A stretch of 40,057 bases of DNA from Methanocorpusculum sp. (lineage in GTDB: Archaea > Halobacteriota > Methanomicrobia > Methanomicrobiales > Methanocorpusculaceae): NCBI GenBank assembly GCA_017387505.1, contig JAFOFB010000013.1, positions 1-40,057 of the forward strand, written 5' to 3'. Below, piece after piece: positions 29,124 through 37,237 of this stretch. Under the pieces are notes generated by a model, which searched no databases, was not told where the DNA came from, and was given only the letters and a program-made list of their open reading frames with translations. Every line of letters starts with the position of its first letter. The stretch's first letter is position 1. Both the position numbers and the translations under genes were made by a program.

Positions 29124-30005
29124 TTAGAAGAGTTCGAGCTGTTTTTGTTTGCCGCCGGTTTTGACTGTAAATATTGATTCGTTAAGCTGTCTGATGTCGT
29201 ATTCGAGGCCTGGGTTTTCTTCTTCAGCAAAGGAGACTGCATCTTCAAAGCTTTCTGCTTTGTCGAGAGGGAAGCTGTATCCGAAGTTGGATAAAAGCAT
29301 GTGATAGATGTCTCCGGAAAATACATCGTCTCCTGTAATCTCCATTAATGAGCGGTGGAAAGCTTTGCACTGCTCAAATGGGTAGAAGCCGTCTTTTATT
29401 TTCTCGGAGAAGATGCGAAGCTGTATTTCGATTGAGGTTTTCTGTTCTGCAGTGAGTGCTTCTTTTCCAAGGTTTGCGGAAAGTGCCTGGTGGATTTTTA
29501 CGATTTTGTGAATCGAAGGCATCTTCCCGTCACGAAGATTCCAGGCATTTTTTATGTTCTGCACAAGGTTTACTTCTGAAAGTGTCTTTCCGCGTGGGAT
29601 TGTTCCGGCAGATAACATCTTTGAGATATCTTCTGCCTCGAATGTGACTGCTTTGTGTGATGTTGCATACTCCGGGAAGATGTCAGCGGATTTCATCTGC
29701 TGTTTTCTGGCAGTTAAAAGACGGTAGCGTTCTATCTCGAATACTGCATCGGTGTCTATTTCTTCTTCGAATCTGAAACTCTCTGCTCTGTACTTTGCGG
29801 CTTTTGCAATGCATTTCAGCTCTAAGTCGAAGCCGAAAAGAGATGCACAGCGGTCAGTTTCTCTTCTGGTTGGAGGAGTACCTGATGTGATGAGGCGTGA
29901 AGCAGAGAACTTCTTTGAGTCAGTGAAGATTTCTCTAATCAGGTAGTATTTTCTGACACTGTTTTGTATGCGAAATTCTATACGATAGAAGTCACCGGCA
30001 GTCAT
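29124..30005 (-). CDS. Fic-like protein lacking the catalytic HPFX(D/E)GNGR motif
   Basis: A 293-residue protein. Residues about 125-190 show a Fic layout: GKTLSEVNLVQNIKNAWN, then IHKIVKIHQALSANLG. Later YPFEQCKAFHRSLMEIT leads to GDIYHMLLSNFGYSFP, which aligns with the Fic helix pair around the active site. The catalytic loop HPFXXGNGR is absent (TGDDVFSGDIY stands in its place), so AMPylation in the usual way is not expected. The N-terminal 110 residues are unlike known Fic N-domains. It ends a minus-strand gene row but has its own AT-rich upstream sequence and a T7 tract before it, so it may be transcribed separately. The family call is moderate. Confidence 0.6.
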   Translation of the reverse strand: MTAGDFYRIEFRIQNSVRKYYLIREIFTDSKKFSASRLITSGTPPTRRETDRCASLFGFDLELKCIAKAAKYRAESFRFEEEIDTDAVFEIERYRLLTARKQQMKSADIFPEYATSHKAVTFEAEDISKMLSAGTIPRGKTLSEVNLVQNIKNAWNLRDGKMPSIHKIVKIHQALSANLGKEALTAEQKTSIEIQLRIFSEKIKDGFYPFEQCKAFHRSLMEITGDDVFSGDIYHMLLSNFGYSFPLDKAESFEDAVSFAEEENPGLEYDIRQLNESIFTVKTGGKQKQLELF

Positions 30006-30057: not shown

Positions 30058-30999
30058 TTAGATGGCCTTCCAGAGGAACTTTTCAGAGTGCAGTCCCTTC
30101 TTCTTCTGACCTGCCGGAATTGCCTCTAAGTCATCAACAATCGACCTCAGTCTCGAACTTGCCCCGTCTGCCTCGTTGACTAACCATGCTTCAGCGGTGA
30201 GCGGGACAACATCTCCGTAAATTCCGTGGTGGGACTGGATGATGTGGCGAATCTGTAAAAGCTGGGAATCGGTTAAGAGAGACTTGTACTCATCAATGAA
30301 CATGATACCCATCGTAATATGTTCGATTAAATTGTAGGTATCGTTTGGAACATAGTTCTGTCCTACTTTGTCGAAGCAGAAAATCTTTCCAATATCGTGG
30401 AGAACACAGCCTGCGATAACCATATCGCGGTTAATCTTTGTACGCGGCATAGTATCCATGATTGAGAGAGCAATTTTTACGGTCTCTAAAGAATGCTCGC
30501 ATAATCCTCCGATATACTCATGGTGGCGGCGGATTGCTGCCGGACACTCGTAGAATCTGCTGTCAAGACAGCATGCAACAAAGATTCTAAGGTTCTGGTT
30601 CTGGATGGATGCAACAATCTTCTGAAGTTCGGATGCATTTTCCTCAATCTTTGCCGGGGTGTAGATGTAGAGCATATCCTCACCTGCAGAAAGCGGTAGA
30701 GTTCCTTCAAGGATTGCATCAAGAGACTCCTCGTTTTCGGACTCGATGAGAAGGCTTCCGCCCTGCGGAACTTTTCCTGTTCCAATAATGCGGTAAACCT
30801 GCCCAGTCTTGATTGAGCGGGCTGCTTCTGCTGCCTTTTCTCCATAGAACTTTGCCTCAAGAACACCTGTTCTGTCGGCTACTGTAATGTGGAGGTACTG
30901 TTCTCCGCGCTTTGCTCTTAAATCTGCTCTCTTAACAGCAAACGGGGCATCAACTACTGTGCCGTTTGTGATATCTTTAACATATACTGTTTTTTCCAT
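30058..30999 (-). CDS. OB-fold/HD-domain protein, YhaM-like 3'-5' exoribonuclease
   Basis: A 313-residue protein with an N-terminal OB fold (about 5-100, nucleic-acid binding) and an HD phosphohydrolase domain. The metal-binding residues are in order: His169 (GGLCEHSLE), His201-Asp202 (LHDIGKI), His227 (EHITMG), His257-His258 (SHHGIYGD) and Asp278 (NEADG). OB plus HD with SHHG and a late Asp is the YhaM layout, a 3'-5' exoribonuclease/nuclease. ATG 30999 is chosen because GGTGAT, overlapping the previous stop, lies 3-8 bases upstream. ATG 31011 lacks such a site. It is the last clear member of the DUF2791 ATPase operon, which suggests it acts with that ATPase. Confidence 0.83.
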   Translation of the reverse strand: MEKTVYVKDITNGTVVDAPFAVKRADLRAKRGEQYLHITVADRTGVLEAKFYGEKAAEAARSIKTGQVYRIIGTGKVPQGGSLLIESENEESLDAILEGTLPLSAGEDMLYIYTPAKIEENASELQKIVASIQNQNLRIFVACCLDSRFYECPAAIRRHHEYIGGLCEHSLETVKIALSIMDTMPRTKINRDMVIAGCVLHDIGKIFCFDKVGQNYVPNDTYNLIEHITMGIMFIDEYKSLLTDSQLLQIRHIIQSHHGIYGDVVPLTAEAWLVNEADGASSRLRSIVDDLEAIPAGQKKKGLHSEKFLWKAI

Positions 31000-31004
31000 A
31001 TTAA

Positions 31005-32291
31005 TCACCATGAAATTTCCATGACTGCCTTCTCTTCAGCCTTAAGCGGAATATCTCCGTTTCCAGGAGTAAAGGCATACTTCTCCATTGGAGAATAGTT
31101 CTCGTACAATGCGCACTTATCTAAAACATCCACGAACTCGCGAAGGAAAAGTCTTGGAACAATATCAACTCTTCCTCCAAATCTTCTGGTAACCTTTGAG
31201 ATCATAGCACGGATGAATGCAGGAGAGACACGGGATGTGTCAACAGCTCCAAATCCTTCGCTGTAGATGTCTGATACTTTGTATGCGGCTTTTTCAAGTT
31301 TCTCGCAGTTGAACTTTGAAAGCACAATCTGGGTCTGCATCGGATTTGCAAATCCGTCATCAGAGATGATTCCGATTCTGTCGTAGAGAGGCGGAAGTGA
31401 GCGTATTCCTTTGGCACTCTCGAAGAATGCCGGAGTTCCGGCAAAGAGGAAGAAGCATCCCGGAATCTCATTTTTATCCGTCATATCGACAAGCTGTCGT
31501 AAGTTGATGTATCCTTTCTCGCGCTGAGGGCGGGAGAATGCCTGGGCTGTTTCTGCCTCGTCGAAGCTTACAAAAAGTCCGGCAAACCCTGCCTGACGGA
31601 TTAAATAGACGATGCCTTTCAAAAACAGCAGGGCATCGGTTTCCGATACCGAGCCTTTCACACCTGCCTGGGACTTGAAACTGCGGTTTGCAACAGTTGT
31701 ATCTCCGGCAATCCATCCAACAGCAGCCTGGGCTGTTGCAAAATCTCCGCGGTTGTTTGCGGCATAGTATGTACGAACAGCAGCAGCAAGGCCTGAACTT
31801 ACTCCTGCAACGCGCTCTAAGGATGATTCAATCTCCTTTTCTGTGAGTTCTGCAAGACGTTCATCATTCTCATCGATTCCGGTCTCGATTAGTCTGTCCT
31901 CTATTCCGAAAATCCAGGTATCGATGATGCTCTTTAGTGCATGGTCTTCGCTTTGAGTAGAAAGGCCTGCACAGATTTTTGTGTAGATTGCAGTAAGTTT
32001 GTGAAGCGGAGTGTCCGGGGAGATTACAACATGGGAGACGACAAACTTTTTCGATCTTGCAAGCTCTGCGGCTCTTGCAATCAGAAATGTCTTTCCTGAA
32101 CCATAGTCTCCTCTGACAAACTTACAGTCCGAATGCCCCAAGGCACAGAACTCGAACTGGGATGAGAGAACCTTCTCCTCTGCTTCGAGCCCTACGGCAA
32201 GACGTGAGAGGCCGGAGTTTGGAACTGTTCCTCTTCTAAGTGCAGTAATTACTGCGATGCTTTCAAGACGCAGGTCATCTGCGGCCGACAT
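31005..32291 (-). CDS. BrxD-like P-loop ATPase (DUF2791)
   Basis: A 428-residue protein with the start RRGTVPNSGLSRLAVG (19-34), then Walker A GDYGSGKT (61-68), VVISPDTPLHKLTAIYTKI (88-106), Walker B GLFVSFDEAE (238-247) and a sensor-like FAGTPAFF (283-290). These segments match the DUF2791 family, which includes BrxD of some BREX phage-defence systems and related conflict systems. No BrxC, PglZ, PglX or other BREX protein occurs in the window. It overlaps the TPR gene by 17 bases and its stop carries the Shine-Dalgarno site of the YhaM-like gene. ATP hydrolysis may load or remodel a nucleic-acid complex; that is inference. Confidence 0.82.
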   Translation of the reverse strand: MSAADDLRLESIAVITALRRGTVPNSGLSRLAVGLEAEEKVLSSQFEFCALGHSDCKFVRGDYGSGKTFLIARAAELARSKKFVVSHVVISPDTPLHKLTAIYTKICAGLSTQSEDHALKSIIDTWIFGIEDRLIETGIDENDERLAELTEKEIESSLERVAGVSSGLAAAVRTYYAANNRGDFATAQAAVGWIAGDTTVANRSFKSQAGVKGSVSETDALLFLKGIVYLIRQAGFAGLFVSFDEAETAQAFSRPQREKGYINLRQLVDMTDKNEIPGCFFLFAGTPAFFESAKGIRSLPPLYDRIGIISDDGFANPMQTQIVLSKFNCEKLEKAAYKVSDIYSEGFGAVDTSRVSPAFIRAMISKVTRRFGGRVDIVPRLFLREFVDVLDKCALYENYSPMEKYAFTPGNGDIPLKAEEKAVMEISW

Positions 32292-34110
32292 ATCCGTACA
32301 CCTCTCCTCTCTCTCCTACTCCGCGTTTCTCAATAAGAGTAACTCCGAAATCTGCCGTCTTTGCAAGAAGGCTGTTTACGATTCCTGCAACTCTTCTGGT
32401 ATCCAGAACGCTTCTTAAATCCATCTCGGTTGCTTCGCGGTGTTCGCGAAGGAATGAGAGAAGTTTCTTCTCGCGTTCGTCAAGGTTTGGAAGAATGTCT
32501 TCTTCAGCGGATACTTCCTCAACCACTTCTTCTGCGGCCTCTGCTGCTTTTTCGAGAAGAATCGGTCTTTCGGCAATCGCTCTTCCTTTGGTTCTTGACA
32601 GGATGTCTGTGAAATCCTGGATGCTGATTGTTGCCGGATAGCACGGGAGAACATCAATTCCTGCTAAACAGAACCATTTACAGTCTTCGTAGCTTCCGCA
32701 CTCGAGAGAATCAACTGCTGAATAGAGATAAACGGCAGATAACATCTCGCGGCCTTTGGAGGTTAAGCGGTCGGAAACTGATGCAAGGCTTTTCTGAACA
32801 AGTCCCCGGGACTTTTCGAGCTGGTAAAGTGCCGAGTCTCCGTTTAAGATGATATCTGATGCGTGCTCTAAGTCTGAAACTGATTCTGCATTTGTTAAGA
32901 TGTAACGGATAACTGTGTCAGCTTCGCGGAATGCTCCTGCCCGCTTCAGATATCCTGCGTATGCCAGTCCGCCGTTTAAGTAGTCTGCACGGTAGGAACG
33001 GTAGAACCAGTCTTTTGCCTGACTGTCTGCTCCTGCGTTTTCAAAGGCCTCACCGATTTTGGCAAGACATACGGCATGCGGGTATGCTGAAAGAACAACA
33101 CTGATAACTCCTGCAACCTCTTCCTTCGAGCGTACGGCTGAGAGGAATGCTGTATATCTGTCGATTACAAGTTCAGCGGTTTCCCAGTCTGCATCGCGCT
33201 TCATGAGCGAGTCAATTAATCCGCGGTAGATAGATGATGCTCTTTCTCCTTCATCCTTCTTTGCGGCAAGCTCTGCTGATAAAAGATGATATACAGCGTC
33301 TGCTTCCGGTGTTATAAGGTGGGAGAGCTCGAACTCTGCGGCATCGTAGTTTTCGAGATATTTTTCCAGAAGCACAAAGGAGAAGCGGATTGCAGAGACA
33401 TTCTCGTCTGAGATGTCAGCCTCTTCGAAGCTGTCAAGTGCCGATCGGTATGCTTTTTCTGCGGCTTCTTTGTCGATTTCAGCGAGTGCTTCCAGGTCAA
33501 GTCTGAGATATGCGGTGTCTTTGGTCTCGGTCCATCCGCGAAGAGCCATGTTTAATGCCTTCTGGAACTCGCCTGATGCGAGGAGTGCTTCGATATACTC
33601 AACGCTGAAGACATCTTCACTGAATGTTCTGCGATGCAGACTTACTGCTTCGTCTGCTTCTCCGACAGCGGTTAATGTCTTTATGAGGGTTTTTACATCC
33701 TCATCTTCTCCGCTGTTTCGAACAAGAGTTCGAAGGGCAGGAATGGCACCTCTCAAATCACCTCTTTCAATGACAAGTTCTGAGTACTGTCTGACTGCCG
33801 GTAGGTTTTCAGGGTCGAGAGTGATTGCTTTTGCAAACTCTGCTTCAGCCCCATCGTTTCCAACGGCTAAAAGGACGTCTCCTAAATAGCTGTGGACGTA
33901 GGATGATCCCGGCATTATTCGAATCAGAGACCGAAGAAGCGATTCTGCGATGTCATATTTTGCAACAGCCGCATAGCTTCTGGCTGATAAAAGCATTAAT
34001 GCCGGGTCGGTGGTTCCTGATGCGAAGCTGATTACTTCGTCATATTTTCCCGCGTTGAAAAGCTCGAGGGCGGCAGATAGTGCCGCCGGGTCCGGTATGG
34101 TATTTTCCAT
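32275..34110 (-). CDS. TPR-repeat protein with C-terminal winged-helix domain
   Basis: A 611-residue, mostly helical protein. Repeats of TPR type run from about 5 to 450, for example YDIAESLLRSLIRIMPGSSYVHSYLGDVLL and AEAEFAKAITLDPENLPAVRQYSELV. After a Glu/Ala-rich linker (about 510-535), residues 540-611 form a probable winged helix (KLLSFLREHREATEMDLRSVLD, then TLIEKRGVGERGEVYGYV). The TPRs should bind a protein partner and the winged helix DNA or another protein. It lies 3 bases after the DJ-1-like gene and overlaps the ATPase gene by 17, so a physical complex with the ATPase is a fair guess. Confidence 0.78.
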   Translation of the reverse strand: MENTIPDPAALSAALELFNAGKYDEVISFASGTTDPALMLLSARSYAAVAKYDIAESLLRSLIRIMPGSSYVHSYLGDVLLAVGNDGAEAEFAKAITLDPENLPAVRQYSELVIERGDLRGAIPALRTLVRNSGEDEDVKTLIKTLTAVGEADEAVSLHRRTFSEDVFSVEYIEALLASGEFQKALNMALRGWTETKDTAYLRLDLEALAEIDKEAAEKAYRSALDSFEEADISDENVSAIRFSFVLLEKYLENYDAAEFELSHLITPEADAVYHLLSAELAAKKDEGERASSIYRGLIDSLMKRDADWETAELVIDRYTAFLSAVRSKEEVAGVISVVLSAYPHAVCLAKIGEAFENAGADSQAKDWFYRSYRADYLNGGLAYAGYLKRAGAFREADTVIRYILTNAESVSDLEHASDIILNGDSALYQLEKSRGLVQKSLASVSDRLTSKGREMLSAVYLYSAVDSLECGSYEDCKWFCLAGIDVLPCYPATISIQDFTDILSRTKGRAIAERPILLEKAAEAAEEVVEEVSAEEDILPNLDEREKKLLSFLREHREATEMDLRSVLDTRRVAGIVNSLLAKTADFGVTLIEKRGVGERGEVYGYVGRR

Positions 34111-34113
34111 AAA

Positions 34114-34626
34114 TTACTGGATAACGGAGAGGATTGCGTCTGCAAATGCCTTTGCGTCGAATGGTGACTTTGCGGTGATGATGTTTCCGTCAACAACAAC
34201 GTTATCAGAGACAATCTCTGCATTGTCGAGCTGTAATACGCGGATACATGCCGGAGTTTGTAAGGTGGTTGCCTTCTTGCCGTTTAAGAGTCCTGCCTCA
34301 CCGAGGATGACCGGAGCTAAGCAGATTGCTGCTGCAAACTTGCCGTTGTTTCCGATTTTGTTTGCGATATCGATGAGCTCTTCACATCTCCAGAGCTGGT
34401 CCTGACATCCGATTCCGCCGCCGATAATGATTCCGTCAAACTCGTCTGCGTTGACATCTGCGAATGCGATGTCTGCTTCAACGATTTCGCCGTGCATACC
34501 GTAACAGGTTCCCTTAACAGGTGCTGCTGTTACACATTCAACGCCTGCTGCTTCGAGTGCCTGCTTTGGAATGGTGTATGCTTCATCCATGAATCTGTCT
34601 GATGCGATTGCGAGAAGAACTTTCAT
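34114..34626 (-). CDS. DJ-1/PfpI family protein
   Basis: A 170-residue class I glutamine amidotransferase-like protein. The nucleophile elbow is AAICLAPV with Cys102. Glu15 in DEAYTIP is the conserved acid that activates the cysteine in DJ-1 proteins, and IIIGGGIG precedes. Members include glyoxalases, deglycases, proteases and chaperones, so the activity is open. ATG 34626 is preferred to 34659 because MKVLLAIASD is the usual start and a TATA-like TTTATC (complement of 34651-34656) lies 25-30 bases upstream. It is the first gene of the TPR/ATPase/nuclease operon. Confidence 0.85.
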   Translation of the reverse strand: MKVLLAIASDRFMDEAYTIPKQALEAAGVECVTAAPVKGTCYGMHGEIVEADIAFADVNADEFDGIIIGGGIGCQDQLWRCEELIDIANKIGNNGKFAAAICLAPVILGEAGLLNGKKATTLQTPACIRVLQLDNAEIVSDNVVVDGNIITAKSPFDAKAFADAILSVIQ

Positions 34627-35500: not shown

Positions 35501-37237
35501 ATGAATGGGCAGTCAAAGGTAGCAGAACTAATCTCGGCAGTTAGTTCAGCAGGATTTTTTAAGAGAATATTTTCATGGAAATCCATAAAGGAAAAAGCGG
35601 TTCTTGCCCGTATGGAAGCAGAAAATGCTGAGTCCATGCATGCGGCAGAGATTCGCGAGATTACCTTCCGCTTAAGCGAGGCTGAAAAAAGAGCCCGCGA
35701 TGCAGAACAGGCAAGACTGGAATCTCTCAGAGAAGCAGATATCAGATACTCAAATGAAACCGCCCGTTCTGCAAGACTGTCAGAGGATCTTACAACTGCC
35801 CGTGAGATGTTAGCCGCAGAAACTGCCGCAAAGCAGGCTTTGTCCATGAGGCTTTCGGATGTGGATTCTGCAAAACGTGAACTTGCATCAGAGTATGCCG
35901 CATTAAAAGCCGATGCGGAAAATCTCGAAACAGATGCCCAAAACTACAGAGACTCTCTGGCTCTTGAAACAGCAGAGAGAATGACTGCATTATCCAGAAT
36001 CGAAGAACTTACAGCCGAAGTTGAAAAGACTTCATCCGAGCTTCGCTTAGTTCGAGACACTCTTGCCGCTGAATCTGAAGGAAGGAAGCTTTCTGCTGAG
36101 AAGTATGCTGCACTAAAGGAAGAGTATGACTCCATGTCTTTGGCATTTGTTGAGATGCGTGAGACAAGAGCAGTTGAAGCAGAGCAGTGCCGTACAGCTC
36201 TTGAAAATGCTGAAGAGTTGACTCTCAAATATGAAAAGGCCGCATCCGAACTTCAGTCCGTACGCGATATGCTGACAGCCGAATCTGAGGGACGAAAGAT
36301 TGAGACTCAGAAGTATGCGGAACTGAAGGCTGAGTTTGATGAGAAATCAATCGAGCTTTCTTCGGTAAAAGAACTCCTTGCCGCAGAGGAAAGTGTAAAA
36401 GAGGAGCGTACTGCAGAGTACGAACGCCGTGTTGAAAAGCTCAACACTTTAGTTGAGCAGATGGAAGCAGACCACGCAAAAGCAGAGGAGAGAATTCTAT
36501 CCGAGGTTGCCGAACGCGAGGAGCGGCTTTCTACTGCATGGCAGAGACATGAGAAGGATGTTTCAGAATCTATGAAGAGCATCGCTAAAAAGCATGATTT
36601 CATCAGATGTGATAAGGACGAGTATCCAAACCCGGGAACCCCGGATAATGTGTTCCTGATTGGCGGAATGTATACTGTCTTCGATGCAAAGAGTCCGAAA
36701 AATCCTGAAGAACTCAGCAACTTCCCGCAGTACCTGAAGGCTCAGGCGGAAGGTATGAAGAAGTACTGTAAGCATGAAAATGTGAGAAAGGATGCTTTCT
36801 TAGTCGTCCCGGCTTCTACTCTTGAAGTATTGACTACATTCATGTATGATTTGGCGGAGTACACCGTCTATGTCATCACTCCTGAGTCTATGCTTCCAAT
36901 CCTTCAGATGTTGAGGACTATCGAAAACTATGACTTCGCAGAGCAGTTAAGCCCTGAGGACAGAGACAAACTTTGCAGATTCATCGGTCGCCTGTCTCAC
37001 ACAACCAAACGCAAAGTCCAGATTGATACTTACTTCTCACGCGAACTGGTCAGCGTTCTTCGCGAGATTGACACACTGCCTGATGAGTTCGCAAACGACA
37101 TCGCTGTCTATGAGCAGAAGGCAAAGCTGAATCCTCCAATGGAGAAGCGTGCAAAGATGATTTCTGTAGCGGATGTATCAGCTGATGTTTCAAGGATTGA
37201 AAACGAGATTCTTGGATGGTCGGTTGTGGAAGAGTAA
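35501..37237 (+). CDS. Long coiled-coil protein with possible PD-(D/E)XK nuclease domain (RmuC-like)
   Basis: A 578-residue protein. Residues about 35-365 are charged heptad sequence, a long coiled coil, with a near-repeat: SELRLVRDTLAAESEGRK (179-196) and SELQSVRDMLTAESEGRK (249-266), spaced exactly 70 residues. The C-terminal domain (365-578) has PD at 381-382 followed by DAK at 395-397 (GGMYTVFDAKSP), a fit to PD-(D/E)XK nucleases. FPQYLKAQAEGMKKYCKHENVRKDAFLVVPAS follows. Coiled coil plus this core resembles RmuC, a suppressor of inversion linked to DNA ends. No signal peptide is seen. It is divergent from the DUF169 gene and opposite the ATPase operon. Confidence 0.72.
   Translation: MNGQSKVAELISAVSSAGFFKRIFSWKSIKEKAVLARMEAENAESMHAAEIREITFRLSEAEKRARDAEQARLESLREADIRYSNETARSARLSEDLTTAREMLAAETAAKQALSMRLSDVDSAKRELASEYAALKADAENLETDAQNYRDSLALETAERMTALSRIEELTAEVEKTSSELRLVRDTLAAESEGRKLSAEKYAALKEEYDSMSLAFVEMRETRAVEAEQCRTALENAEELTLKYEKAASELQSVRDMLTAESEGRKIETQKYAELKAEFDEKSIELSSVKELLAAEESVKEERTAEYERRVEKLNTLVEQMEADHAKAEERILSEVAEREERLSTAWQRHEKDVSESMKSIAKKHDFIRCDKDEYPNPGTPDNVFLIGGMYTVFDAKSPKNPEELSNFPQYLKAQAEGMKKYCKHENVRKDAFLVVPASTLEVLTTFMYDLAEYTVYVITPESMLPILQMLRTIENYDFAEQLSPEDRDKLCRFIGRLSHTTKRKVQIDTYFSRELVSVLREIDTLPDEFANDIAVYEQKAKLNPPMEKRAKMISVADVSADVSRIENEILGWSVVEE

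Follow-up and report, generated by a model that had tools for sequence, protein, structure and literature searches.

A TPR-BrxD gene pair and an unlinked BrxHI-type helicase as a candidate core DNA machine of three methanogen families

The window analysed here is a 40,057-nucleotide stretch of Methanocorpusculum sp. DNA (assembly GCA_017387505.1, contig JAFOFB010000013.1, positions 1 to 40,057), and our subject is two minus-strand genes within it that encode a TPR-repeat protein and a BrxD-like AAA+ ATPase. We find that these genes form one unit and that a third gene, for a BrxHI-type superfamily 2 (SF2) helicase, shares the distribution of the TPR gene from an unlinked position in the genome, which is a new observation. 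On balance, and by a narrow judgement, we favour the view that the three products constitute a constitutive, vertically inherited DNA machine, and we incline to a housekeeping function, in the maintenance or surveillance of the genome, rather than a purely antiviral one, since stable inheritance among housekeeping genes favours such a role over that of a turnover-prone defence island. Among the open PMC papers listed, no title or abstract contains a description of a TPR-BrxD-BrxHI module (subscription papers and preprints lay outside this scope). The two window genes are as follows.

32275..34110, minus strand: TPR-repeat protein, 611 amino acids, whose C-terminal domain of about 80 amino acids is conserved (putative winged helix); evidence from TPR_19, junction spacing and distribution

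31005..32291, minus strand: BrxD-like AAA+ ATPase, 428 amino acids; evidence from PF10923, BREX_BrxD, PADLOC BrxD and the Walker motifs

To map what travels with the pair, profiles for the TPR protein, the ATPase, the helicase and two neighbouring products, a YhaM-like protein and a DJ-1 protein, were run on the same order sample of 120 genomes in six families (f1 to f6). The TPR gene is present in 61 of them (25 in f1, 12 in f4 and 24 in f6), families that we suggest correspond to Methanocorpusculum/Methanocalculus, Methanofollis and Methanoregulaceae, respectively, and these carriers comprise all sampled members of these families and 0/59 genomes of f2, f3 and f5. At a clade cut-off of at least 632 bits the ATPase is found in 60 genomes, and comparison of coordinates shows that it overlaps or abuts the TPR gene in every one; the sole TPR genome without it, G024, has a contig that stops 2 bases past the TPR match, and five more genomes of the order hold distant BrxD matches only. 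(In an initial search, 44 of 61 relatives had an ATPase match at E ≤ 0.001, distant Shango-type matches included.) The YhaM-like gene, counted at E ≤ 1e-15, occurs in 77 genomes (23/25 in f1, 12/12 in f4, 0/24 in f6 and 42 in f2 and f5), and DJ-1 in 107/120, families without the pair included. Given the constant adjacency of the TPR and ATPase genes and the dissociation of YhaM, the former two are therefore one unit and the latter is not part of it. A sequence-only reading of the window had expected both the TPR and the OB-HD (YhaM-like) genes to recur beside the ATPase in an accessory locus: the TPR gene is indeed an obligate neighbour, the OB-HD gene fails in all of f6, and the locus, far from accessory, is universal within f1, f4 and f6. 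A single peptide pattern retrieves at least 64 named module loci, from Methanocorpusculum and its kin, Methanocalculus, Methanofollis, Methanoregula, Methanolinea and further members of the order.

The coupling of the two genes extends to their junction, whose spacing is conserved beyond chance. In the window the TPR gene overlaps the ATPase gene by 17 nucleotides, and the ATPase start is preceded by a purine-rich run within the TPR gene. Across 105 loci, the TPR stop lies 34-52 nucleotides before the ATPase motif LRRGTVP in the 84 that could be scored by strict patterns, and at exactly 46 nucleotides in 61; the 21 unscored loci include six with Shango-type or other BrxD genes, two views of the frame-broken locus of genome G015 and two truncated ones. 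G015, a termite-gut bin, was kept out of the evidence because assembly error there is indistinguishable from decay: in its locus (L238) the TPR, ATPase and YhaM genes are each spread over several reading frames and DJ-1 lies in a single frame, and the helicase query gives weak matches only.

The helicase emerged from comparison with other BrxD genes of the phylum, which, beyond this clade, adjoin an SF2 helicase gene in the loci examined. A query with one such helicase returned the Lhr found across the order and, in module-bearing genomes only, a further helicase of about 700-720 amino acids, and a profile built from an alignment of 17 sequences was run on the order sample and on a phylum sample of 246 genomes that overlaps it. 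At a cut-off of at least 655 bits in the order sample, the BrxHI-type helicase is present in exactly the 61 TPR genomes, the best match in the other 59 being 347.7 bits; in the phylum sample, with at most 4-5 candidates scored per genome for helicase and TPR protein, the TPR protein, the ATPase and the helicase mark an identical set of 28 genomes, none of them outside the order. The next helicase matches (496-499 bits) come from three f12 genomes in which helicase and ATPase genes are neighbours. All three helicases scanned match PADLOC BrxHI near full length (547, 524 and 518 bits, with 373, 368 and 358 bits for SngC), and residues K51, D154 E155 H157, S189 A190 T191 and Q330 R331 G333 R334 are invariant among the 17 sequences. 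In the window genome (G000) the gene lies on contig 22 (64467-66575, minus strand), and it escaped the sequence-only reading because this is not the contig of the ATPase; in the single-contig genomes G014, G016, G042, G045, G047 and G060, 63 kb to 1.2 Mb separate the two genes. A gene that by eye encodes a thioredoxin-like protein lies near the helicase in 15 of the 20 loci fetched. The nearest solved structures are the Lhr chains 5v9x and 7lhl, and Lhr-like helicases are recorded by the part of PMC8301817 drawn on here for just two archaeal genomes, both from outside this order.

As had been proposed from the sequence, the ATPase is genuinely related to BrxD: it scores 412 bits against PF10923, exceeds the curated cut-off of NCBIfam BREX_BrxD (383.5 bits against 350, over residues 13-422 of 428) and is preferred by the PADLOC BrxD model (390.6 bits) over SngB (145.4 bits). 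Its Walker A residues G61 G64 G66 K67 T68 and Walker B residues D244 E245 are invariant in 46 sequences. Sequence and profile searches for a solved structure of BrxD gave none, the best hit (E 0.062, a sugar kinase) being taken as chance. For the TPR protein, the repeats are borne out by a Pfam TPR_19 match of 44.4 bits, and the winged helix of the earlier adaptor proposal stands as a putative assignment without a profile match: the C-terminal domain holds 14 invariant columns in 24 sequences, and for the C-terminus of the window protein Pfam returns nothing at E ≤ 1 and the PDB no convincing profile match. Comparison with known winged-helix families and PDB chains likewise gave nothing convincing, and kinship with TerB_C was rejected (hhalign probability 1.0%, no similarity).

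Phylogenies place both enzymes on the BREX-2/6 side (BREX, bacteriophage exclusion). In all nine bacterial plasmid loci fetched, the helicase gene directly follows the BrxD gene; five are annotated as BREX-2, one as BREX-6, one carries an alkaline-phosphatase domain and is labelled BREX here, one is Shango-like and one, from Deinococcus, is neither, and two of the nine helicases are missing from the gene table of their record. The Deinococcus plasmid locus (L247:1987-9401) encodes two hypothetical proteins, a BrxD-like ATPase and a helicase, with no annotated BREX gene in 13 kb. Trees were computed on a chosen subset (16 of 34 methanogen ATPases, 17 of 20 methanogen helicases, 6 of 16 earlier outgroups and the nine plasmid loci). 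The methanogen BrxD proteins form one clade (99/99) that groups with BREX BrxD and the Deinococcus protein (100/99), with Shango outside; the methanogen BrxHI proteins form one clade (100/100) that groups with the BREX and Deinococcus helicases (85/89). The helicase tree, which includes four Lhr rows and a Rhodococcus helicase frame of 1056 amino acids trimmed to its last 720 residues, was run without a mixture model and is less firm than the ATPase tree; the trees leave branching within the BREX-side group unresolved and carry long-branch warnings. Their shared placement, together with the linkage in 9/9 plasmid loci, makes it plausible that BrxD and BrxHI go back to a single linked dyad whose genes later separated, or to an ancestor common to both.

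Among the closest known systems are BREX types 2 and 6, the module ATPase and helicase matching the BrxD and BrxHI models near full length and grouping with BREX in the trees. The part of PMC12839542 cited here describes BrxD and BrxHI as a tightly linked dyad in BREX, proposes helicase loading, gives their function in BREX as unknown and, in its survey, lists no archaeal type-2 BREX. The methanogen module differs in that its helicase is unlinked from BrxD, its TPR partner is found in none of the fetched BREX loci, and it is core and vertical. No BREX genes lie beside the window ATPase: the genes examined there include neither a PglX/BrxX methyltransferase nor BrxC (no genome-wide search was made). 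PglZ has no match in the window genome, which is 83.5% complete, in agreement with the earlier view that the locus differs from ordinary BREX (no search for a methylase was made); among 61 relatives, 12 have a PglZ match, five of them among 44 genomes of f1, f4 and f6, some weak. Shango (SngABC: TerB protein, ATPase and helicase), which restricts phages in Pseudomonas according to the portion of PMC10250203 used, resembles the module in combining an adaptor, a BrxD-family ATPase and a Lhr/Ski2-like helicase without methylase or PglZ; the module enzymes, however, match SngB and SngC with much lower scores than they reach for BrxD and BrxHI and fall outside the SngB and SngC clades (the helicase less firmly), the protein beside the ATPase has TPR repeats instead of TerB and an unlike C-terminus, and the helicase is unlinked.

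Several other loci of the phylum sit apart from the core module. L061, L062, L065, L085 and L090, which belong to some of the methanogens, are Shango-type (TerB protein, ATPase, helicase), L061 being confirmed by PADLOC and the other four by sequence clusters. L064, L068 and L086-L089 encode a BrxD-like ATPase, in many cases accompanied by a second ATPase, together with a short BrxHI-like helicase (524-564 amino acids) and a protein of 280-315 amino acids that, in the one case scanned, has no family. The f12 loci L082-L084 combine a BrxD-like ATPase with a BrxHI helicase linked to it and a family-less protein of 258 amino acids (one scanned), and are a possible non-BREX intermediate.

The three module genes are under purifying selection. 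Among near relatives, the ratio of nonsynonymous to synonymous substitution rates (dN/dS) is 0.025-0.054 for the ATPase, 0.043-0.058 for the TPR protein and 0.037-0.078 for YhaM, and 0.063 and 0.082 for the helicase in the two of three pairs that were computable. Viral contigs yielded no relative, phage records no relative of the ATPase and plasmids no relative of the TPR protein; more distant BrxD-type ATPases occur in 681 plasmid records at E ≤ 1e-10, 18 of which reach 1e-20. Around the ATPase the TPR gene is the constant neighbour and the flanks vary, their genes including some that by eye are pyrG-, hisD-, argD-, guaA- and uvrB-like. Universality in the order with housekeeping partners had been named in advance as one of the findings that would refute the sequence-only reading, and about half of that picture is seen: the pair is vertical, universal in three families and set among housekeeping genes, and the 59 other genomes lack it.

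In the mechanism that we propose, the TPR protein, via its repeats and conserved C-terminal domain, would recognise a DNA-bound partner or a DNA site and position the BrxD ATPase. The latter, with its predicted ORC/Cdc6-like AAA+ fold, would oligomerise on DNA and load or activate the BrxHI helicase, which would unwind or clear that DNA; the proteins would interact physically, the TPR adaptor replacing BREX or TerB partners in directing the loader-helicase pair. The likeness to ORC/Cdc6-type helicase loaders lies in the classification of BrxD as an ORC/Cdc6 AAA+ ATPase in the cited part of PMC12839542, and sequence profiles add no PDB relative. More tentatively, and with a probability that we place below even, the defence-type pair with its TPR adaptor could be a core chromosomal machine of the three methanogen families that restarts replication, repairs DNA or surveys the chromosome. 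It would then be a BREX dyad that was domesticated, or what is left of the cellular machine that supplied the BREX and Shango dyads.

A functional link among TPR protein, BrxD and BrxHI is likely because unlinked loci change jointly, all 61 genomes retain the set, and BrxD and BrxHI form a dyad elsewhere. Several observations weigh against this interpretation or soften it. On a gltX tree of 30 of 31 genomes (no locus for G047), presence and absence require three changes, and a single change is not rejected (approximately unbiased test, p 0.227). On a gltX+Lhr tree of 28 genomes (no usable Lhr for G033 and G054), a single branch separates the module-less families from the others (support 82/89). 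Repeated independent losses, hinted at by gltX, are not upheld there, and several co-losses are therefore not claimed; the three-gene co-occurrence may reflect a single joint loss or gain, so the link is graded likely and no higher. Mirror-tree correlations among the three proteins (0.956-0.965) are only slightly above those of controls (0.79-0.95) and are not decisive, and the placement of f4 differs slightly between the BrxD and BrxHI trees. Furthermore, in three of the four pairs most genes have a dS above 1, which makes the dN/dS ratios of those pairs rough; no NCBIfam equivalog reaches its cut-off with the helicase; and the TPR C-terminal domain fits neither a known fold by profile nor TerB_C.

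The strongest competitor, though an unlikely one in our estimate, is resident innate immunity, in which the three proteins would counter viruses and plasmids in the manner of a pared-down BREX-2 or Shango that has become chromosomally fixed. The closest characterised relatives of the enzymes are indeed defence parts (BrxD/BrxHI of BREX, and Shango), but the flanking housekeeping-like genes provide no defence-island setting, there is no turnover within f1, f4 and f6 (61/61 genomes), the searches of viral contigs, of phage records (ATPase) and of plasmids (TPR protein) came back empty, and no nuclease, methylase or PglZ partner was identified (no methylase search was made). Layouts that join TPR repeats, an AAA+ ATPase and a putative winged helix resemble signal switches, and we regard as improbable, more so than immunity, that TPR protein and BrxD form a two-part regulator, a split STAND-like switch of ATPase, repeat sensor and DNA-binding domain with which BrxHI co-occurs by loss or gain on the same branch. 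Apart from this layout, such a regulator would accord with the single change that may account for all three genes and with a very large f4 protein encoded just upstream in six loci, which by eye resembles a PAS sensor kinase with a receiver domain; yet BrxD and BrxHI are a dyad everywhere else examined and share BREX-side ancestry. That the TPR protein, the ATPase and the YhaM nuclease act jointly on nucleic acid, as the sequence-only reading had it, is suggested by their shared strand and tight spacing in the window and by the YhaM gene of the fetched f1 and f4 loci, which frequently adjoins the ATPase gene, but is very hard to reconcile with 24/24 f6 genomes that have TPR, BrxD and BrxHI genes and no YhaM match, with 42 genomes that have YhaM without the pair, and with the 6/6 f2 loci that keep DJ-1, a glycosyltransferase and YhaM in a row without it.

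The last of these observations also bears on how the pair came to its present site. The second gene of the f2 row belongs to a cluster whose f1 member is a family-2 glycosyltransferase, and in f6 and the second f1 genus the TPR-ATPase pair typically lies directly after that gene; because of this arrangement the pair looks like a block inserted into, or excised from, an older gene row. The two window genes that flank the pair are the following.

30058..31011, minus strand: OB-HD (YhaM-like) protein, 317 amino acids; HD and OB-fold domains, co-directional here and non-obligate

34114..34626, minus strand: DJ-1/PfpI protein, 170 amino acids; PF01965, a neighbour order-wide and non-obligate

The minus-strand cluster of four open reading frames is thus real, with a 3-nucleotide gap between DJ-1 and TPR genes, and a Shine-Dalgarno-like GGTGAT does span the ATPase stop, where it would serve an inner ATG of the YhaM-like gene at 30999; from the listed start this gene overlaps the ATPase gene by 7 nucleotides, and from the inner ATG a short gap results. 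The proposed four-part conflict operon does not survive, as only TPR and ATPase genes hold together. The YhaM-like protein matches HD (41.1 bits) and OB-fold (27.6 bits) in Pfam, and H205 D206 are invariant in 10 sequences; it shares the OB and HD layout of the YhaM 3'-5' exoribonuclease but reaches 84 bits against the curated cut-off of 460 for the YhaM model (NF010007), so that "YhaM-like" denotes a domain layout and not a family call. DJ-1 matches DJ-1_PfpI (PF01965) at 125.8 bits. Between the window and G018 its dS is 0.017, with dS of about 0.5 for the adjoining TPR, ATPase and YhaM genes, and this near-identity even at synonymous sites likely marks a recent recombination tract.

The "Fic-like" gene (29124-30005) has no Pfam, NCBIfam or PADLOC match at E ≤ 0.01, and positions 35501-37237 encode a coiled-coil protein of 578 amino acids with weak similarity to the coiled coils of TrlF and LmuB. 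These Fic-like and PD-DXK-like coiled-coil genes, once assigned to the same locus, reappear next to the module in a single one of 34 other module loci, that of G018, and together with YhaM and DJ-1 they are ruled out as module parts by distribution and gene order. In f4, loci L050, L051, L053, L054, L055 and L060 encode a protein of 1596-1856 amino acids that looks by eye like a histidine kinase with several PAS domains and a receiver domain; its gene lies between DJ-1 and TPR genes in most of the six, and it may provide the module with sensor input.

A defence-type machine thus seems to serve these archaea as core cell equipment. Kept by all sampled members of f1, f4 and f6, in an order with cultured members, a BrxD/BrxHI pair without evidence of an adjoining methylase or PglZ offers a minimal setting for a direct test of the loader-helicase idea, and may exemplify a common origin of a core DNA machine and a defence module.

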